Part shown: piece by piece, positions 11,664 to 57,538 of the stretch | Numbering within the stretch: the stretch's first letter is position 1 | Layout: every line of letters begins with the position of its first letter | Assembly (NCBI RefSeq): GCF_010725055.1 | Contig: NZ_BJKB01000002.1 | Span: 186,001 to 250,000 of the forward strand | Length of the DNA: 64,000 nucleotides | Direction of reading: 5' to 3' | DNA from: Gelidibacter japonicus | GTDB lineage: Bacteria > Bacteroidota > Bacteroidia > Flavobacteriales > Flavobacteriaceae | Position numbers and translations under genes: made by a program | Notes under the pieces: model-generated | Told to the model about the DNA's origin: nothing | The model's input: the letters and a program-made list of their open reading frames with translations, nothing else | The model's database searches: none

Positions 11664-11965
11664 CGAAGTTTCTCGCACATAACGTAATGCCAAGGTGAAA
11701 TTGAAGCTGAAGATGAAGTTGAAATTTTGATGGGTGACTGATGACGGGTGACCAGGGTTCATGGGTTATTTCACAGAGATTCAATGAGAAAAATTGAGTT
11801 TCAAGGAGACACTGAAAACTAAATACTTAAGCTCCCGAATGTACTAAATCGATACCGGCATCCTGAACACTGCACTCTGAATACTGAATACTGCCAACCC
11901 GCCCCGAAAGTGGCCTTTCGGTACGGCAAGCCGCCAACTGATAACTGCCGACTGCCAACTGAACC
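11664..11965. repeat. Intergenic low-complexity region with ACTG heptamers and a hairpin
   Basis: This 302-bp gap has no gene. Near 11694-11717 it carries TGAAGN hexamers. Around 11862-11897 it has CTGAAT/ACTGCC-type heptamers, then a hairpin CCGAAAG-TGGC-CTTTCGG (11904-11921). From 11934 four perfect-phase NNNACTG heptamers (CCAACTG, ATAACTG, CCGACTG, CCAACTG) run into the stop codon of the minus-strand gene at 11966. The same unit type recurs at 31566, 37037 and 57483. Confidence 0.7.
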
Positions 11966-12676
11966 TTATTCTTTCCCTGGATTCTTGCTATAAACCGTAA
12001 AGTCCTTTTCTTCGGTTAGGACACCTTTCTCATAAAACTTCCAAATCCCATGCTTTTGGTCATTTCTATAAGCGCCTTCGGCTAACATCTTTCCGTCTGC
12101 ATCATAATATTTGGACAAACCGTTGAGGACGTCATTTTCATAAGTAAACTCCTTGATGAGCACCCCTCTTTCTGAAAACACTTTAGAAATCCCATCCAAC
12201 TTGCCATTGACATAATGAGATTGTTCCGCTATTTGACCATTTGGATAATAGACTACCTTTTCACCCTCGAGCTGACCTTTATCATTATAATGTTCCACGG
12301 TCATGATACCATTCGTTTTATTGTGGTAGTACACCCATTTTCCAACAAAGAGTTTGTTGGTCATATGTCCTTCACTTATTAGCTTGCCCTTTGAAGAATA
12401 GAATTTTACAAGAATATTATCGCTGTTAGGGTCAAATTCACGAGTGGCGCTCAAGACACTTTTATTGTTGACCAACTTATAAAATTTAAACATTCCTATT
12501 TCCTTACCATGTTCAAAGCTGCCTTCATACCTAGGTTGATCCGTCTGATCAAAATTTACTTTCCAAAACCCATGGCGTTCACCGTCCTTATCCAATTGGT
12601 TTATAGCATTCTGCGCATTAGACTTTGTTAAAAATACTGTTAAAAACAACACAAAAAAGATATTTTGTTTAATCAT
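11966..12676 (-). CDS. Secreted MORN-repeat (YwqK-type) protein
   Basis: A 236-residue protein with signal peptide (cleavage near KSNAQ). It then carries a chain of MORN-like units, seen as DGERHGFWKV, YEGSFEHGK, GHMTNKLFVGKWVYYH, YPNGQIAEQSHYVNGKLDG and GAYRNDQKHGIWKFY. Such proteins are common in Bacteroidota and usually annotated as YwqK-like toxin-antitoxin components by similarity only; no toxin partner is present here. A periplasmic or surface role is likely, and its function is unknown. It is divergent from the fasciclin gene across a 66-bp region with two overlapping palindromes. Its stop abuts a heptamer array. Confidence 0.8.
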   Translation of the reverse strand: MIKQNIFFVLFLTVFLTKSNAQNAINQLDKDGERHGFWKVNFDQTDQPRYEGSFEHGKEIGMFKFYKLVNNKSVLSATREFDPNSDNILVKFYSSKGKLISEGHMTNKLFVGKWVYYHNKTNGIMTVEHYNDKGQLEGEKVVYYPNGQIAEQSHYVNGKLDGISKVFSERGVLIKEFTYENDVLNGLSKYYDADGKMLAEGAYRNDQKHGIWKFYEKGVLTEEKDFTVYSKNPGKE

Positions 12677-30358: not shown

Positions 30359-30979
30359 ATGGACATTCTACTTCACCCTACCTATTTCCCGAGTATTGCA
30401 CAATGTGTTGCCATGATTCAGGCAGAAAAGGTGATTTTTGAAGTCTGCGATAATTATCAGAAACAAACCTACAGAAACCGAATGACCATCTATGGTGCAC
30501 AAGGTAAAATCCCCTTGACGGTTCCAGTGACTTATTCTCAAAAAAATAGACAGCTCTACAAGGATATTATCATATCAAATGATGAAAAATGGCAAGATCT
30601 GCATTGGAAATCGATTCAATCTGCCTACAGTAGTTCTCCGTTTTTCGAGTTTTACGAACACGATCTGGCACATCTTTTCACTGAAGAAGCAACCAACTTG
30701 ATGGATTTTAACTTTAGATGCTTAGATGCCATTATGGAATGCCTGCAACACGAACTGAAGTTTGAAAGGACAACTGAATTTGAACTGAATCCCACACAAC
30801 AAAAAGATTACCGATATTTAGCCAATCATAGAAAAGAAACCGAACATCCATTGAAACCGTATGTGCAGGTGTTTGATGACAAACACGGATTTATTTCAAA
30901 TCTGAGCGTTCTCGATTTGATTTTCAACGAAGGTCCGAACGCCTTATTATATCTTGAAAAACAACAATTACCCGTATAA
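30359..30979 (+). CDS. WbqC family protein
   Basis: A 206-residue protein from ATG 30359 (a TTG two codons upstream is less likely). The N-terminus LLHPTYFPSIAQCVAMIQA and the following NYQKQTYRNRMTI and SPFFEFYEHDL are WbqC signatures. Members occur in polysaccharide clusters of proteobacteria but are conserved next to lepB in Flavobacteriaceae; the reaction is unknown. It is coupled to the next gene by TAATG (30977-30981). Confidence 0.88.
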   Translation: MDILLHPTYFPSIAQCVAMIQAEKVIFEVCDNYQKQTYRNRMTIYGAQGKIPLTVPVTYSQKNRQLYKDIIISNDEKWQDLHWKSIQSAYSSSPFFEFYEHDLAHLFTEEATNLMDFNFRCLDAIMECLQHELKFERTTEFELNPTQQKDYRYLANHRKETEHPLKPYVQVFDDKHGFISNLSVLDLIFNEGPNALLYLEKQQLPV

Positions 30980-31293
30980 TGCTGCAATCCTTTATACATT
31001 ACGGAATTCATTTTGGGCTGCCCTTGGTAATAGCCTTTCTCTTTTTTAGATCCAACTGGAAATCCGCTTATTTGATCATGATTGCGACGATGCTCATCGA
31101 CTTGGATCATCTTTTGGCAACCCCCCTATTCGACCCTGGACGCTGTAGTATCAATTTCCATCCTCTCCACACTTATTATGCGATGGTTGTTTATGTTGGA
31201 TTTCTATTTATTAAAAAAACAAGGATTTTGGGCATCGGATTGGTCATTCATATGATAGCAGACGCAACGGATTGTTGGATGATGACGCTTTGA
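30979..31293 (+). CDS. DUF6122 family small membrane protein
   Basis: A 104-residue protein with two or three helices and several His/Asp residues in conserved positions (FIHYGIHFGLP, MLIDLDHLLATPLFDPGRCS, FHPLHTYY, HMIADATDCW). The histidine-aspartate pattern resembles membrane metal-dependent hydrolases of the DUF457/YdjM kind, which is an inference. It ends the parA-to-DUF6122 run. A 7-bp repeat array begins 4 bp after its stop. Confidence 0.82.
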   Translation: MLQSFIHYGIHFGLPLVIAFLFFRSNWKSAYLIMIATMLIDLDHLLATPLFDPGRCSINFHPLHTYYAMVVYVGFLFIKKTRILGIGLVIHMIADATDCWMMTL

Positions 31294-31296
31294 GGT

Positions 31297-31324
31297 TCAA
31301 GATTCAAGATTCAAGATTCAAGAT
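31297..31324 (+). repeat. Heptamer array (TCAAGAT)x4 next to a stop codon
   Basis: Four perfect tandem copies of the 7-mer TCAAGAT start 3 bases after the DUF6122 stop (31291-31293). They are followed by a T run. Confidence 0.9.
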
Positions 31325-31565
31325 TTTTTAAGGGTAAAAAAATAGTTGAAAAATATATTGTTTTAGCTAAATAATTTCTGCGATACTCTGCGACCCGAGC
31401 GATAGCGAACTGGCGAAGCAAATCTTCGGGAGAAATCTAACAATACGATTTGCGATTTGCGATTTGCGAAAATAAAAAAAAAGCCATATCACAAGGATGT
31501 ACAAAGAAATATCTACACATTTGAACATAGTCATAACTCTGAACTCATAATTCGAAACCCAATTA
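31325..31565. other. Gene-free stretch with short repeats
   Basis: Contains an imperfect long inverted repeat bracketed by CCCGA and TCGGG (about 31394-31430) and three perfect copies of the 7-mer CGATTTG (31446-31466) followed by an A run. No ORF of convincing composition is present. Confidence 0.6.
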
Positions 31566-31642
31566 TCAACTGAAGACTGCTAACTGAAGACTGCCAACTG
31601 AGGACTGCCAACTGAAGACTGCCAAATGAAGACTGCCAACTA
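31566..31642 (+). repeat. Heptamer array of eleven NNNACTG-type units ending in a stop codon
   Basis: Exactly 77 bp, eleven units of 7. Most are AAGACTG alternating with CCAACTG, a 14-bp higher-order period; variants are CTAACTG, AGGACTG and CCAAATG. The last unit, CCAACTA, contains the stop codon (TAG on the minus strand, 31642-31640) of the EEP phosphatase gene. Confidence 0.92.
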
Positions 31643-32662
31643 CCTCACCTTCACCCGACTCATAATCGGAAAATGGTCTGAAAGCTTGACGTCAAAAGTT
31701 CGAAATCCGTTGATTTCAAAATGATCATCTACAAGAATAAAATCGATCCTCACCGGAAAGAACCTAAAATCGAAGGACCGTCCAAATCCATTTCCTGCTT
31801 CTACAAAGGCATCTTTAAGATTGTTGCCTTTAATTTTCTTATAGACATAGGAATAGGCCGTATTATTGAAATCGCCACAAACAATCGTCTTATAGGGACT
31901 AGTGGCCTTATGCTCCAAAAACAAATCAGCTTGTGCCTGTTGCAATCTAAATGTATTGCCAACACGTCTAAATAGATTTTCAGCGGCTTCATTTTTCAGT
32001 GGATCCGTACTCGCATCAATTTTTAAAGATTGCAGATGCACATTATATATCCTAATCGTATCCTTGCCTCTCACAACATCGGCAAAAATGGCATTATTAT
32101 AAGTGTTTGGGAATTCTATAGAACCTGTATTGATGATTGGAAACTTAGAAAATATGGCCTGTCCATTTCTAATTTTGTTTCCTCCAACTGCTTCAAACCT
32201 AAAGTATTCCTTCATCACCAACCCATCATCAGGTCTATATTCCTGCATGCTGATGATATCAGGTTTTTTATCATCAATAAACCGACTTATCTCTTGGGCT
32301 GCATCAATGCCCGGAATCCACTTAAAAACATTGAACAAGCGTACATTGTAGTTCATCACGGCAATATTGTCAACATCATCTATTTGTTTTGATGAAGAAA
32401 TCTTATATAATGATGCCACATGGTTAAAACCAATCAAAAGAACAATTAGAGATAATAGAAGTTGTTTTTTGACTTTTAAAAGCCAGTAGATAACAAACAG
32501 AAGATTGACAATAATCAAAAAAGGAACCGTTAGACTTAATACGGACAAAAAAGCGAAACGTTTTGGCTCAATGTACGGCAAGATATAGGCCAGTAAAAGA
32601 GTGGTCGCTGCAATTGAATTTAAGAAAAACAAAAGCTTATCAATAAGATTTAGTTTTTTCAT
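31640..32662 (-). CDS. Endonuclease/exonuclease/phosphatase family membrane protein
   Basis: A 340-residue protein with three N-terminal membrane helices (to about residue 95) and a C-terminal EEP domain. Motifs are MNYNVRLFN, SMQEYRPD (metal Glu), the catalytic CGDFNNTAY and SDHFPIM. Membrane-tethered EEP enzymes of this layout are common in Flavobacteriaceae; substrate may be a phospholipid, sugar phosphate or nucleic acid. It lies 5 bp after the second rhomboid in the mutL operon. Confidence 0.9.
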   Translation of the reverse strand: MKKLNLIDKLLFFLNSIAATTLLLAYILPYIEPKRFAFLSVLSLTVPFLIIVNLLFVIYWLLKVKKQLLLSLIVLLIGFNHVASLYKISSSKQIDDVDNIAVMNYNVRLFNVFKWIPGIDAAQEISRFIDDKKPDIISMQEYRPDDGLVMKEYFRFEAVGGNKIRNGQAIFSKFPIINTGSIEFPNTYNNAIFADVVRGKDTIRIYNVHLQSLKIDASTDPLKNEAAENLFRRVGNTFRLQQAQADLFLEHKATSPYKTIVCGDFNNTAYSYVYKKIKGNNLKDAFVEAGNGFGRSFDFRFFPVRIDFILVDDHFEINGFRTFDVKLSDHFPIMSRVKVR

Positions 32663-36763: not shown

Positions 36764-37036
36764 ATGTACTCAAAATACGAGGAAAAACGATGCTATTACT
36801 GCTAAAAATTGTTAATAATGGAGCGGAAGCACGAAGCTTGATGTTGGAAGGATATGTGTTCAATGACGGATGACGGATGACGGTGATGGATGACGGTGAT
36901 GGATGACGGCTGAGTTAGGGTCTGATGATCGTCGATTGCTGAAAGTTCTTTAAACGGGATTTCATTAAGTGCCGCTGAATAGAACAAAAAACATTCGTGA
37001 ATTCGTGGCTAAAAAACACACGACTGATTGCCACCC
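36764..37036. repeat. Gene-free stretch with ATGACGG heptamers
   Basis: The 273-bp region carries five ATGACGG copies between 36863 and 36909. The first three are in perfect tandem, and the rest are spaced by TGATGG hexamers. Before them lies a GGAAGC/CGAAGC-like degenerate heptamer run (about 36823-36850). A minus-strand frame through this region is a by-product of the repeats. Confidence 0.7.
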
Positions 37037-37099
37037 CCAACTGAGGACTGCATCGCCTATTGATGACTGCCTACTGAAGACTGCCTACTGAAGACTAAA
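37037..37099 (+). repeat. Heptamer array of nine units (ACTG type) beside ribH
   Basis: Sixty-three bp in strict 7-bp phase. CCAACTG and AGGACTG are followed by two drifted units, then GACTGCC and TACTGAA twice, ending GACTAAA. The ribH stop (37106) begins 6 bp later. The same AAAAC tail ends the array at 57483-57538. Confidence 0.85.
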
Positions 37100-37105
37100 A
37101 ACCAA

Positions 37106-37588
37106 TCATCCCTGACGCAACACCGCCATTTTGATCGCCGCCACAGCAGCTTCAACGCCTTTATTGCCGTGTTTTCCTCCAGATCTTTCAATAGACTGTT
37201 GCATATTATCGTCGGTAAGCACACAAAAAATCACAGGAGTGTCGTTCAACACATTTAAATCCTTGATCCCTTGTGACACTGCTTCGCATACAAAATCAAA
37301 ATGTTTGGTTTCGCCTTGAATCACACTCCCTATAGCGATAACGGCATCCACCTTGTGCTCTTGCATTTTCTTGCAGCCATAGATCAATTCATAACTTCCT
37401 GGCACATGCCAACTAATGATATTGTCAGGTAAGGTACCGTGTTCAATCAAGGTGTCGAGGGCACCTTTGTGCAGATTATCCGTGATATTACTGTTCCATT
37501 CTGAAACAACAATCCCAAATCGAAAGTTCTTCGCATTTGGGATTGTGTTTTTATCGTAGTCGGATAAGTTTTTATTTTTTGTTGCCAT
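37106..37588 (-). CDS. ribH: 6,7-dimethyl-8-ribityllumazine synthase
   Basis: A 160-residue penultimate enzyme of riboflavin synthesis. Motifs are GIVVSEWNSNIT (substrate loop), VPGSYEL, AIGSVIQGETKHFDFVCEAVSQGI with the catalytic His, and PVIFCVLTDDNMQQ. Length fits the icosahedral-capsid-forming family. It lies 3 bp after the TPR gene in a two-gene operon. Confidence 0.96.
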   Translation of the reverse strand: MATKNKNLSDYDKNTIPNAKNFRFGIVVSEWNSNITDNLHKGALDTLIEHGTLPDNIISWHVPGSYELIYGCKKMQEHKVDAVIAIGSVIQGETKHFDFVCEAVSQGIKDLNVLNDTPVIFCVLTDDNMQQSIERSGGKHGNKGVEAAVAAIKMAVLRQG

Positions 37589-44803: not shown

Positions 44804-44833
44804 ATTTATAATTTAATTAATTCTGATTACTAT

Positions 44834-45172
44834 TAGGGATGAGGGATTAGGTATTAGGGATTAGGGATTAGGGATTAGGGATTAGGGATTAGGTATTAGG
44901 TATTTGATATTCTTTATTCTTTATTCTTTATTCTTTATTCTTTATTCTTTATTCTTTATTCTTTATTCTTGGCCCCTCCTCCTGGATCTTGATTCTTGAT
45001 TCTTAATTCTTGATACTTAGTACTTAATTCTTTGTTCTTTATTCTATATTCTATATTCTTGGCCCCTCCTCCTGGATCTTGATTCTTGATTCTTAATTCT
45101 TAATACTTAATACTTAGTACTTAGTACTTAATACTTAATAATCAGTACTTAATTCTTTATTCTCAATACCCG
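44834..45172. repeat. Large heptamer-repeat locus between ndk and nrnA
   Basis: Almost the whole 463-bp divergent gap is low-complexity DNA of 7-bp period. First come GGGATTA/GGTATTA units (about 44834-44903), next about nine TTTATTC units (about 44912-44969), then mixed units of the form NRTNCTT (GATTCTT, AATTCTT, ATACTTA, GTACTTA types). A roughly 48-bp segment containing GGCCCCTCCTCCTG is present twice, at 44964 and 45054, 90 bp apart. The nrnA promoter box lies beyond it. Confidence 0.9.
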
Positions 45173-57482: not shown

Positions 57483-57538
57483 ATAACTGCCGACTGAAGA
57501 CTGCCGACTGAAAACTGCTTACTGAAAACTAAAAACAT
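57483..57538 (+). repeat. Heptamer array of eight units running into a start codon
   Basis: ATAACTG, CCGACTG, AAGACTG, CCGACTG, AAAACTG, CTTACTG, AAAACTA and AAAACAT fill 56 bp in exact phase. The last unit carries the first two bases of the M48 gene's ATG (57537). The first 14 bases are identical to those at 11941-11954. Confidence 0.9.

Follow-up and report, generated by a model that had tools for sequence, protein, structure and literature searches.

Tandem arrays of heptameric units have been described from several bacterial lineages. The available sections of Rehm 2015 (PMC4692102) describe G-rich GGGNATC and GGGGAYT repeats in Xanthomonas and Nostoc, which form G-quadruplexes in vitro and lie mostly between genes, nearer to the 5' neighboring ORF (mean 28 vs 160 nt) whatever its direction and at most 50 bp from a stop codon (sense) or a start codon (antisense), with some overlapping stop codons. 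According to the same sections, unit positions 1–4 and 6 are conserved, locations are conserved while array length changes, four units are preferred, each genome uses one unit family, and no role was found. A second type, as presented in the available part of MacGregor 2015 (PMC4679880), is the TAACTGA direct repeat of marine Beggiatoaceae, cyanobacteria, and five Bacteroidetes, a single exact heptamer that lies chiefly just ahead of starts, with some arrays overlapping stops. That part further states that related heptamers are rare as direct repeats in that genome, that TAACTGA arrays are missing from the same gap in close relatives, and that the arrays of Gramella and Aequorivita lie among "other heptamer direct repeats". 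An excess of heptanucleotide units over units of other lengths among prokaryotic long simple sequence repeats, together with the idea of slippage linked to polymerase contacts, goes back to Mrazek 2007, as cited in the parts of PMC4692102 and PMC4679880 available.

Here we analyzed a 64,000-nt stretch (hereafter the window; C2:186001-250000) of the Gelidibacter japonicus genome (G000; 4.67 Mb in 61 contigs), in which two opposing genes enclose three such arrays. Genes were called from ORFs with a hexamer scorer, by which stops are firm and starts are not (the DUF6122 start is set too short). On one side lies the DUF6122 gene (30979-31293, + strand, 104 aa, stop TGA at 31291-31293; Pfam PF19617, E 9.8e-50), and on the other the EEP (Exo_endo_phos) gene (31640-32662, − strand, 340 aa, stop TAG; Pfam PF03372, E 3.9e-20), whose protein is 88-90% identical to the counterparts in Gelidibacter gilvus, G. 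maritimus, and G. pelagius. The gap between them (31294-31639) is bounded by both stops. A preliminary description of this DNA had placed four copies of TCAAGAT 3 bases past the DUF6122 stop, and the ORF end at 31293 and the TTCAAGA (TCAAGAT) array at 31296-31325 (+ strand, 4.3 perfect copies, beginning 2-3 nt past the stop) bear this out. Also as described, a CGATTTG array (31446-31469, + strand, 3.4 perfect copies) sits between the other two, and both G. pelagius (L008) and G. gilvus (L002) have degenerate counterparts of it at a like position. The same gap contains, at 31377-31432, a dispersed intergenic element of 55-56 bp, CTCTGCGACCCGAGCGATAGCGAACTGGCGAAGCAAATCTTCGGGAG, which is REP-like by eye and has copies elsewhere in the genome (L171:4362-4416 and L239:3451-3506; 94.5% and 87.5% alike).

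The third array (31566-31642, − strand) comprises 11 heptads of the form CAGTNNN on the EEP strand, which from 31642 down to 31566 read TAGTTGG, CAGTCTT, CATTTGG, CAGTCTT, CAGTTGG, CAGTCCT, CAGTTGG, CAGTCTT, CAGTTAG, CAGTCTT, and CAGTTGA. TRF reports the same AAGACTG/CCAACTG array at 31567-31641 as a 14-bp unit repeated 5.4 times with 90% matches. The first unit opens with the EEP stop TAG (complement of 31640-31642), which therefore stands in register with the array. The earlier statement that the array forms the stop did not hold up, as among congeners that lack an array in this gap the nearest, G. maritimus (L003), has an EEP gene with the same TAG and the same length of 340 aa, and the EEP stop therefore need not come from the array; TAG also agrees with the usual unit at only two of three bases (T for C).

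The units TTCAAGA, CGATTTG, and CAGTNNN contain no G-tracts able to form a quadruplex. A reading of these arrays as GGGANTN-type G-quadruplex elements is almost certainly wrong: their geometry is that given in the available sections of Rehm 2015 (PMC4692102), and one G-run array is present in the window (ATTAGGG, 44831 on), but GGG tracts are lacking in the units of the three arrays and in the CAGTNNN family. Rfam models gave no match at the gathering threshold against 30900-32000, and both the G-quadruplex and the Rfam explanations were rejected.

The three arrays are part of a class of 7-nt tandem arrays that occurs between genes throughout the genome. The window holds 18 exact period-7 runs, where 0.43 were expected from 30 order-3 Markov randomizations, and 0-2 runs at each of the other periods from 2 to 30 except period 14 (4 runs). 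A first genome sample (20 stretches of 20 kb at set places, 400 kb) yielded 20 exact period-7 arrays vs 2.2 expected; periods 14, 21, and 28 were raised as well, periods 6 (6 vs 1.2), 9 (4 vs 0.6), and 12 (3 vs 0.2) were mildly raised, and mono- and dinucleotide runs were depleted. A replicate on a disjoint 396 kb of the same genome yielded 12 arrays vs 0.6 expected. Tandem 7-nt units are thus in excess over chance, as in heptanucleotide repeats. With mismatches allowed (window plus 400 kb), there were 20 arrays at period 7, 17 at 14, 9 at 21, and 7 at 28, with 0-3 at each other period, and the degenerate period-7 arrays were intergenic in 19 of 20 cases. The earlier observation that different units share one period of seven is therefore seen in both the window and the 400-kb sample, and the genome scan proposed with it found period 7 strongly preferred in two disjoint samples. 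Units can change even within one array, as in the long run at 44831-45168, in a gap called divergent, where ATTAGGG, TATTCTT, TCTTGAT, CTTAATA, and TACTTAG follow one another.

Beyond this genome, 72 loci of other Flavobacteriaceae (1.39 Mb) contained 15 arrays at period 7, 15 at 14, 10 at 21, and 9 at 28, with at most 6 at each remaining period; among the arrays listed, they came from 10 of the 72 loci. Small samples of G249 and G229 (picked for high CAGT counts), G129 (picked for high counts of the reversed pattern), and G198 gave 2, 0, 1, and 0 period-7 arrays, respectively. In G121, from another family, periods 8, 24, and 7 gave 3, 5, and 4 arrays; those nearest stops were rich in G in the same direction, and a facing pair occupied one gap, all on few arrays. 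A 100-kb stretch of Escherichia coli K-12 contained no arrays at any period from 2 to 30.

We evaluated the position of arrays relative to genes by placing each array at random within its own gap (2000 randomizations). At stop edges, 9 of 25 arrays lay within 5 nt vs 1.5 expected, a count that none of the 2000 randomizations reached, while at start edges only 1 of 25 did (1.4 expected), indicating no start preference. Two of the 32 gap-assigned arrays are at least half coding; the stop-edge count was 7 of 23 vs 1.4 (P 0.0002) without them and 5 of 20 vs 1.3 (P 0.007) when the three arrays of the DUF6122/EEP gap were also removed. In the replicate, 6 of 10 arrays lay within 20 nt of a stop edge vs 2.7 (P 0.006) and 3 of 10 within 5 nt vs 1.5 (P 0.08). 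The gene-end preference suggested in the preliminary description thus holds for stop codons specifically. Gap type had little effect in the first sample (0.51, 0.44, and 0.58 arrays per kb in tandem, divergent, and convergent gaps), and the few replicate arrays were distributed 9, 1, and 1 over the same types. An example of a start-side array, of ACTGNNN units, lies at 57486-57530 (+ strand), directly ahead of a start codon on that strand.

We hypothesize that slipped-strand or template-switch events would lengthen or shorten arrays in steps of 7 nt, by which arrays would arise, grow, and turn over, and that selection would set where they stay, removing them inside genes or across promoters and sparing those that adjoin a coding edge, most of all directly past a stop codon. 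This combination of 7-nt slippage and subsequent selection at gene edges is, in our judgment, the most likely cause, with about an even chance of being right. Slippage in 7-nt steps explains the period, the diversity of units, the turnover, and the insertion-like growth, and selection accounts for why genes lack arrays. In its favor, period 7 with 14, 21, and 28 dominates whatever the unit, and the units change along the single array at 44831-45168. We infer slippage as the mutation, with the number seven probably dictated by the machinery of replication or repair and gene edges probably acting as tolerated places.

The array at the EEP stop belongs to a family, new in this analysis, in which a fixed tetramer is followed by three free bases (CAGTNNN), and these three bases vary within a single array. 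The pattern CAGTNNNCAGTNNNCAGT occurs 106 times in the genome vs 15 times for the reversed pattern, and it is present at least once in 222 of 395 genomes of the phylum; because the reversed control pattern is high in some of these genomes, CAGT itself is not universal. Distances between successive CAGTs peak at 7 in the own genome (45 vs 13.2 expected), in congeners (59 vs 2.9), and in Winogradskyella (75 vs 3.5), with a smaller peak at 6 (24, 2, and 25, respectively). The fixed core was also recovered without assuming a motif: over 65 arrays, the three most variable neighboring columns held 0.78 of the variation vs 0.707 when permuted, a modest effect in which 45 of 65 arrays exceeded the permuted mean. 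In a mask test on five data sets, which counted four copies sharing four positions while the rest varied, and in which one array can count under several arrangements, four neighboring fixed positions were found 104 times vs 72, 62, 74, and 36 times (mean 61) for four non-neighbor arrangements, and the contiguous arrangement was commonest in all five sets. The same test gave 0 on shuffled own sequence and 0-2 at periods 6, 8, 9, and 10 in both the own genome and a relative from the same class, G300. Other members of the family in the window lie at 37055-37096 (− strand), 9 nt past the stop of ribH (37106-37588), and at 11933-11961 (− strand), just downstream of the gene at 11966-12676 (− strand).

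The CAGT arrays are polar. Contexts were taken for the 100 of 106 CAGTNNNCAGTNNNCAGT matches that were listed, and among these there were 46 CAGT arrays in the own genome, 45 of them intergenic. Reading CAGT 5' to 3', the closer coding edge was the left one for 35 of 45 arrays and the right one for 10 of 45 among the matches listed (P 2.5e-4). Merging arrays within ~100-200 bp of each other, which drops an opposite-strand partner, gave 34 vs 8 among the same matches, and this merged count was polar regardless of gene direction, with the left edge nearer in 22 of 27 cases where it was a stop and 12 of 15 where it was a start. Also among the matches listed, stops at most 20 nt from a sense CAGT array were TAG in 12 of 19 cases, against a background of 135 of 646 genes from the same stretches (Fisher P 6e-5), the stop lay exactly 4 nt before the first counted CAGT, and so formed the first unit, in 8 of 27 (7 TAG, 1 TAA), and sense stops at most 60 nt away were in first-unit phase in 9 of 22. 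Orthologues can carry TAG without an array (EEP in L003 and others), which means that the stop is not necessarily a product of the array; in a set of 37 orthologous loci, minus five own copies and L285 (a split gene that was read wrongly), TAG ended 13 of 16 genes that adjoin an array vs 7 of 15 that do not (Fisher P 0.07). One and the same ABC-transporter locus, array included, occurs at G000:C18:45824 and G000:C20:50463 (L173, L174), on two contigs, which reflects either a duplication or an assembly artefact, and it was counted once in the stricter tests.

For other families in the own genome, G exceeded C at 12 stop edges vs 5 (P 0.14) and at 8 start edges vs 1 (P 0.04), and T exceeded A at 9 of 9 start edges; the corresponding G300 counts were 21 vs 4 at stop edges and 14 vs 0 at start edges. 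These counts do not establish a base-skew polarity common to all families, the skew being only partly significant in the own genome. Arrays of the AAGA type seem to be oriented by the strand of the gene and not by the edge of the gap.

From slippage alone one would not expect four neighboring bases to be held constant while three are free, nor the same vocabulary to be in use at more than 40 loci, nor any polarity or TAG register. Since slippage by itself leaves the constant tetramer, the array polarity, and the TAG register unexplained, a second factor favoring the tetramer is likely, and a recognizing factor would account for all three. The arrays might then be functional sites for a putative factor that recognizes a tetramer specific to each genome and repeated with 3-nt spacing: CAGT in the own genome, and GATG, GTGA, and GCTA in G300, where 43 period-7 arrays were found in 400 kb and pairs of these cores at distance 7 numbered 159 vs 22, 165 vs 10.5, and 44 vs 2.9 expected. 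We hold this possibility tentatively and consider it rather unlikely. The constant tetramer with its variable trinucleotide, the CAGT spacing peak at 7, the 5'-edge polarity, TAG excess, and register among the matches listed, and the persistence of arrays in the same gaps over the genus all argue for such sites, but the genes next to the arrays (ribH, ruvC, ffh, and others) are housekeeping genes with no relation to one another, the array is lost at orthologous genes while the gene stays, and at 43 other Flavobacteriaceae loci the CAGT distance peaks at 6 (32) rather than at 7 (15, 9.5 expected). We know of no binding protein for a spaced tetramer.

Turnover was followed in eight further Gelidibacter genomes together with the own genome. 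Across these nine, the EEP/DUF6122 gap ranges from ~65 to 366 bp and its heptads differ, with CAGTNNN-like units past the EEP stop and GATTNNN-like units (GATTGAC, GATTGTT, TTCAAGA) past the DUF6122 stop. Arrays recur in this gap (7 of 9 genomes) and in the ribH gap (7 of 8), and in the remaining seven of nine orthologous gaps they were present in 1 of 59 cells. Two orthologous gaps thus keep arrays across the genus while the units turn over; next to the RuvC, FeS_assembly_P, Ffh, and ABC-transporter orthologues, arrays were gained, lost, or replaced between congeners. Within gaps, length grew with array length at about 1 bp per bp, as for insertions (slope 0.94, 76 cells), and the low correlation that comes with this slope (r 0.38) counts against slippage with selection.

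Heptad arrays are present in the ribH gap of most Gelidibacter genomes and of some Winogradskyella. In 7 of the 15 Winogradskyella loci shown, a homogeneous ACTGCNN array lies just ahead of the promoter-like sequence of the next gene; its NN differs by species, and it faces CAGT units near the ribH stop where these are present. Past ribH in Winogradskyella tangerina (L027:5541-5900), CAGTCG and CAGTATT-like units alternate in a degenerate run of period 13 (6+7), and CAGT is kept. The ribH-gap arrays (window 36863-36883 and 37055-37096; L002-L038 near 5700) lie two genes upstream of mutL, and it is conceivable that they affect mutL expression.

Phase variation, with the arrays as switches of neighboring genes, is a reading that we consider very improbable. 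A 7-nt change at a stop overlap or in a 5' leader can alter a C-terminus or a spacing, and C-terminal length does differ between congeners (EEP 340, 344, and 346 aa; RuvC 184-211 aa); on the other hand, the neighbors are housekeeping genes, the EEP array lies past the stop, and the start edges showed no preference (1 of 25 within 5 nt).

Arrays could also serve as hairpin arms within the gaps, by which transcription would be terminated or insulated in both directions, and in G300 they do face each other within one gap and fold into long stems. Its array gaps were more stable than shuffles (median z -7.1, 68% below -3, n=28) vs -1.1 for 60 other gaps, and in 23 of 31 gaps an arm matched its own partner better than it matched the arms of other gaps on average (in 5, better than any other), which leaves 8 of 31 without a better match; three array-less convergent gaps fold well too (median z -9.2). 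Inverted pairs are also given for two xanthomonads (70 and 75) in the available sections of Rehm 2015 (PMC4692102), and the own genome has one facing CAGT pair among the matches listed (C7:99816/99871). Against this, the array gaps of the own genome show no folding advantage over shuffles (median z 0.04, n=18, vs -1.23 in 60 other gaps), those of G234 reach a median z of -1.5 (n=5), and the DUF6122/EEP gap folds worse than all 100 shuffles (z +2.96). Hairpin arms are thus improbable as the nature of the arrays, and they were rejected as a general explanation for the own genome and for the DUF6122/EEP gap. The loops of three heptad-armed hairpins in G300 contain a ~170-nt palindromic element, GTGCGAGACCTCTGGTCTCGCAC with GTCGCC...GGCGAC (L220:6106-6467, L229:15634-16083, and L236:10015-10401).

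Returning to slippage with selection, the CAGTNNN arrays of this marine, non-pathogenic flavobacterium offer many loci per genome and sequenced congeners, which makes slippage testable against recognition: slippage predicts free change at all seven positions, and recognition predicts that only the tetramer matters. More broadly, the polar heptads of Bacteroidota, Xanthomonas, and cyanobacteria might be one phenomenon, in which a recognized tetramer (CAGT, GATG, GTGA, GCTA, or GGGA by lineage) with a free 3-nt spacer would run from the coding edge into the gap, built or maintained by a putative tetramer-reading machine, and the same family at both edges would give giant hairpin arms; we regard this unifying scheme as doubtful. 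One detailed study of heptad placement tied the place to G-quadruplexes, and units of the present kind show that quadruplexes are not needed, since a geometry common to units with and without G-tracts does not have quadruplexes as its cause.

Our literature search found no account of polar heptads in Bacteroidota beyond the TAACTGA cases, nor of a stop-codon register. What is attributed to Mrazek 2007, as cited in the available parts of PMC4692102 and PMC4679880, is a count of unit lengths, with no polarity, tetramer core, or stop register. The arrays resemble the TAACTGA repeats, as portrayed in the available part of MacGregor 2015 (PMC4679880), in being intergenic heptamers, and TAACTGA contains ACTG, which fits the start-side ACTGNNN; unlike those repeats, the units here vary and stop edges are preferred, and an exact TAACTGA pair was sought in the three arrays of the gap without a match. 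With the Rehm type, as given in the available sections of PMC4692102, they share the period of seven, the intergenic place, the polar placement (35 of 45 CAGT arrays among the matches listed), the overlap with stops, and locations that persist while array length varies; they differ in having several families in one genome, the main one, CAGTNNN, without a G-tract, and in a stop that lies in array register with TAG over-represented, which is not among the features reported in those sections. The arrays described here are thus a non-G4 variant of the known heptad arrays, and the same layout built on quite different repeats suggests a shared, testable cause.
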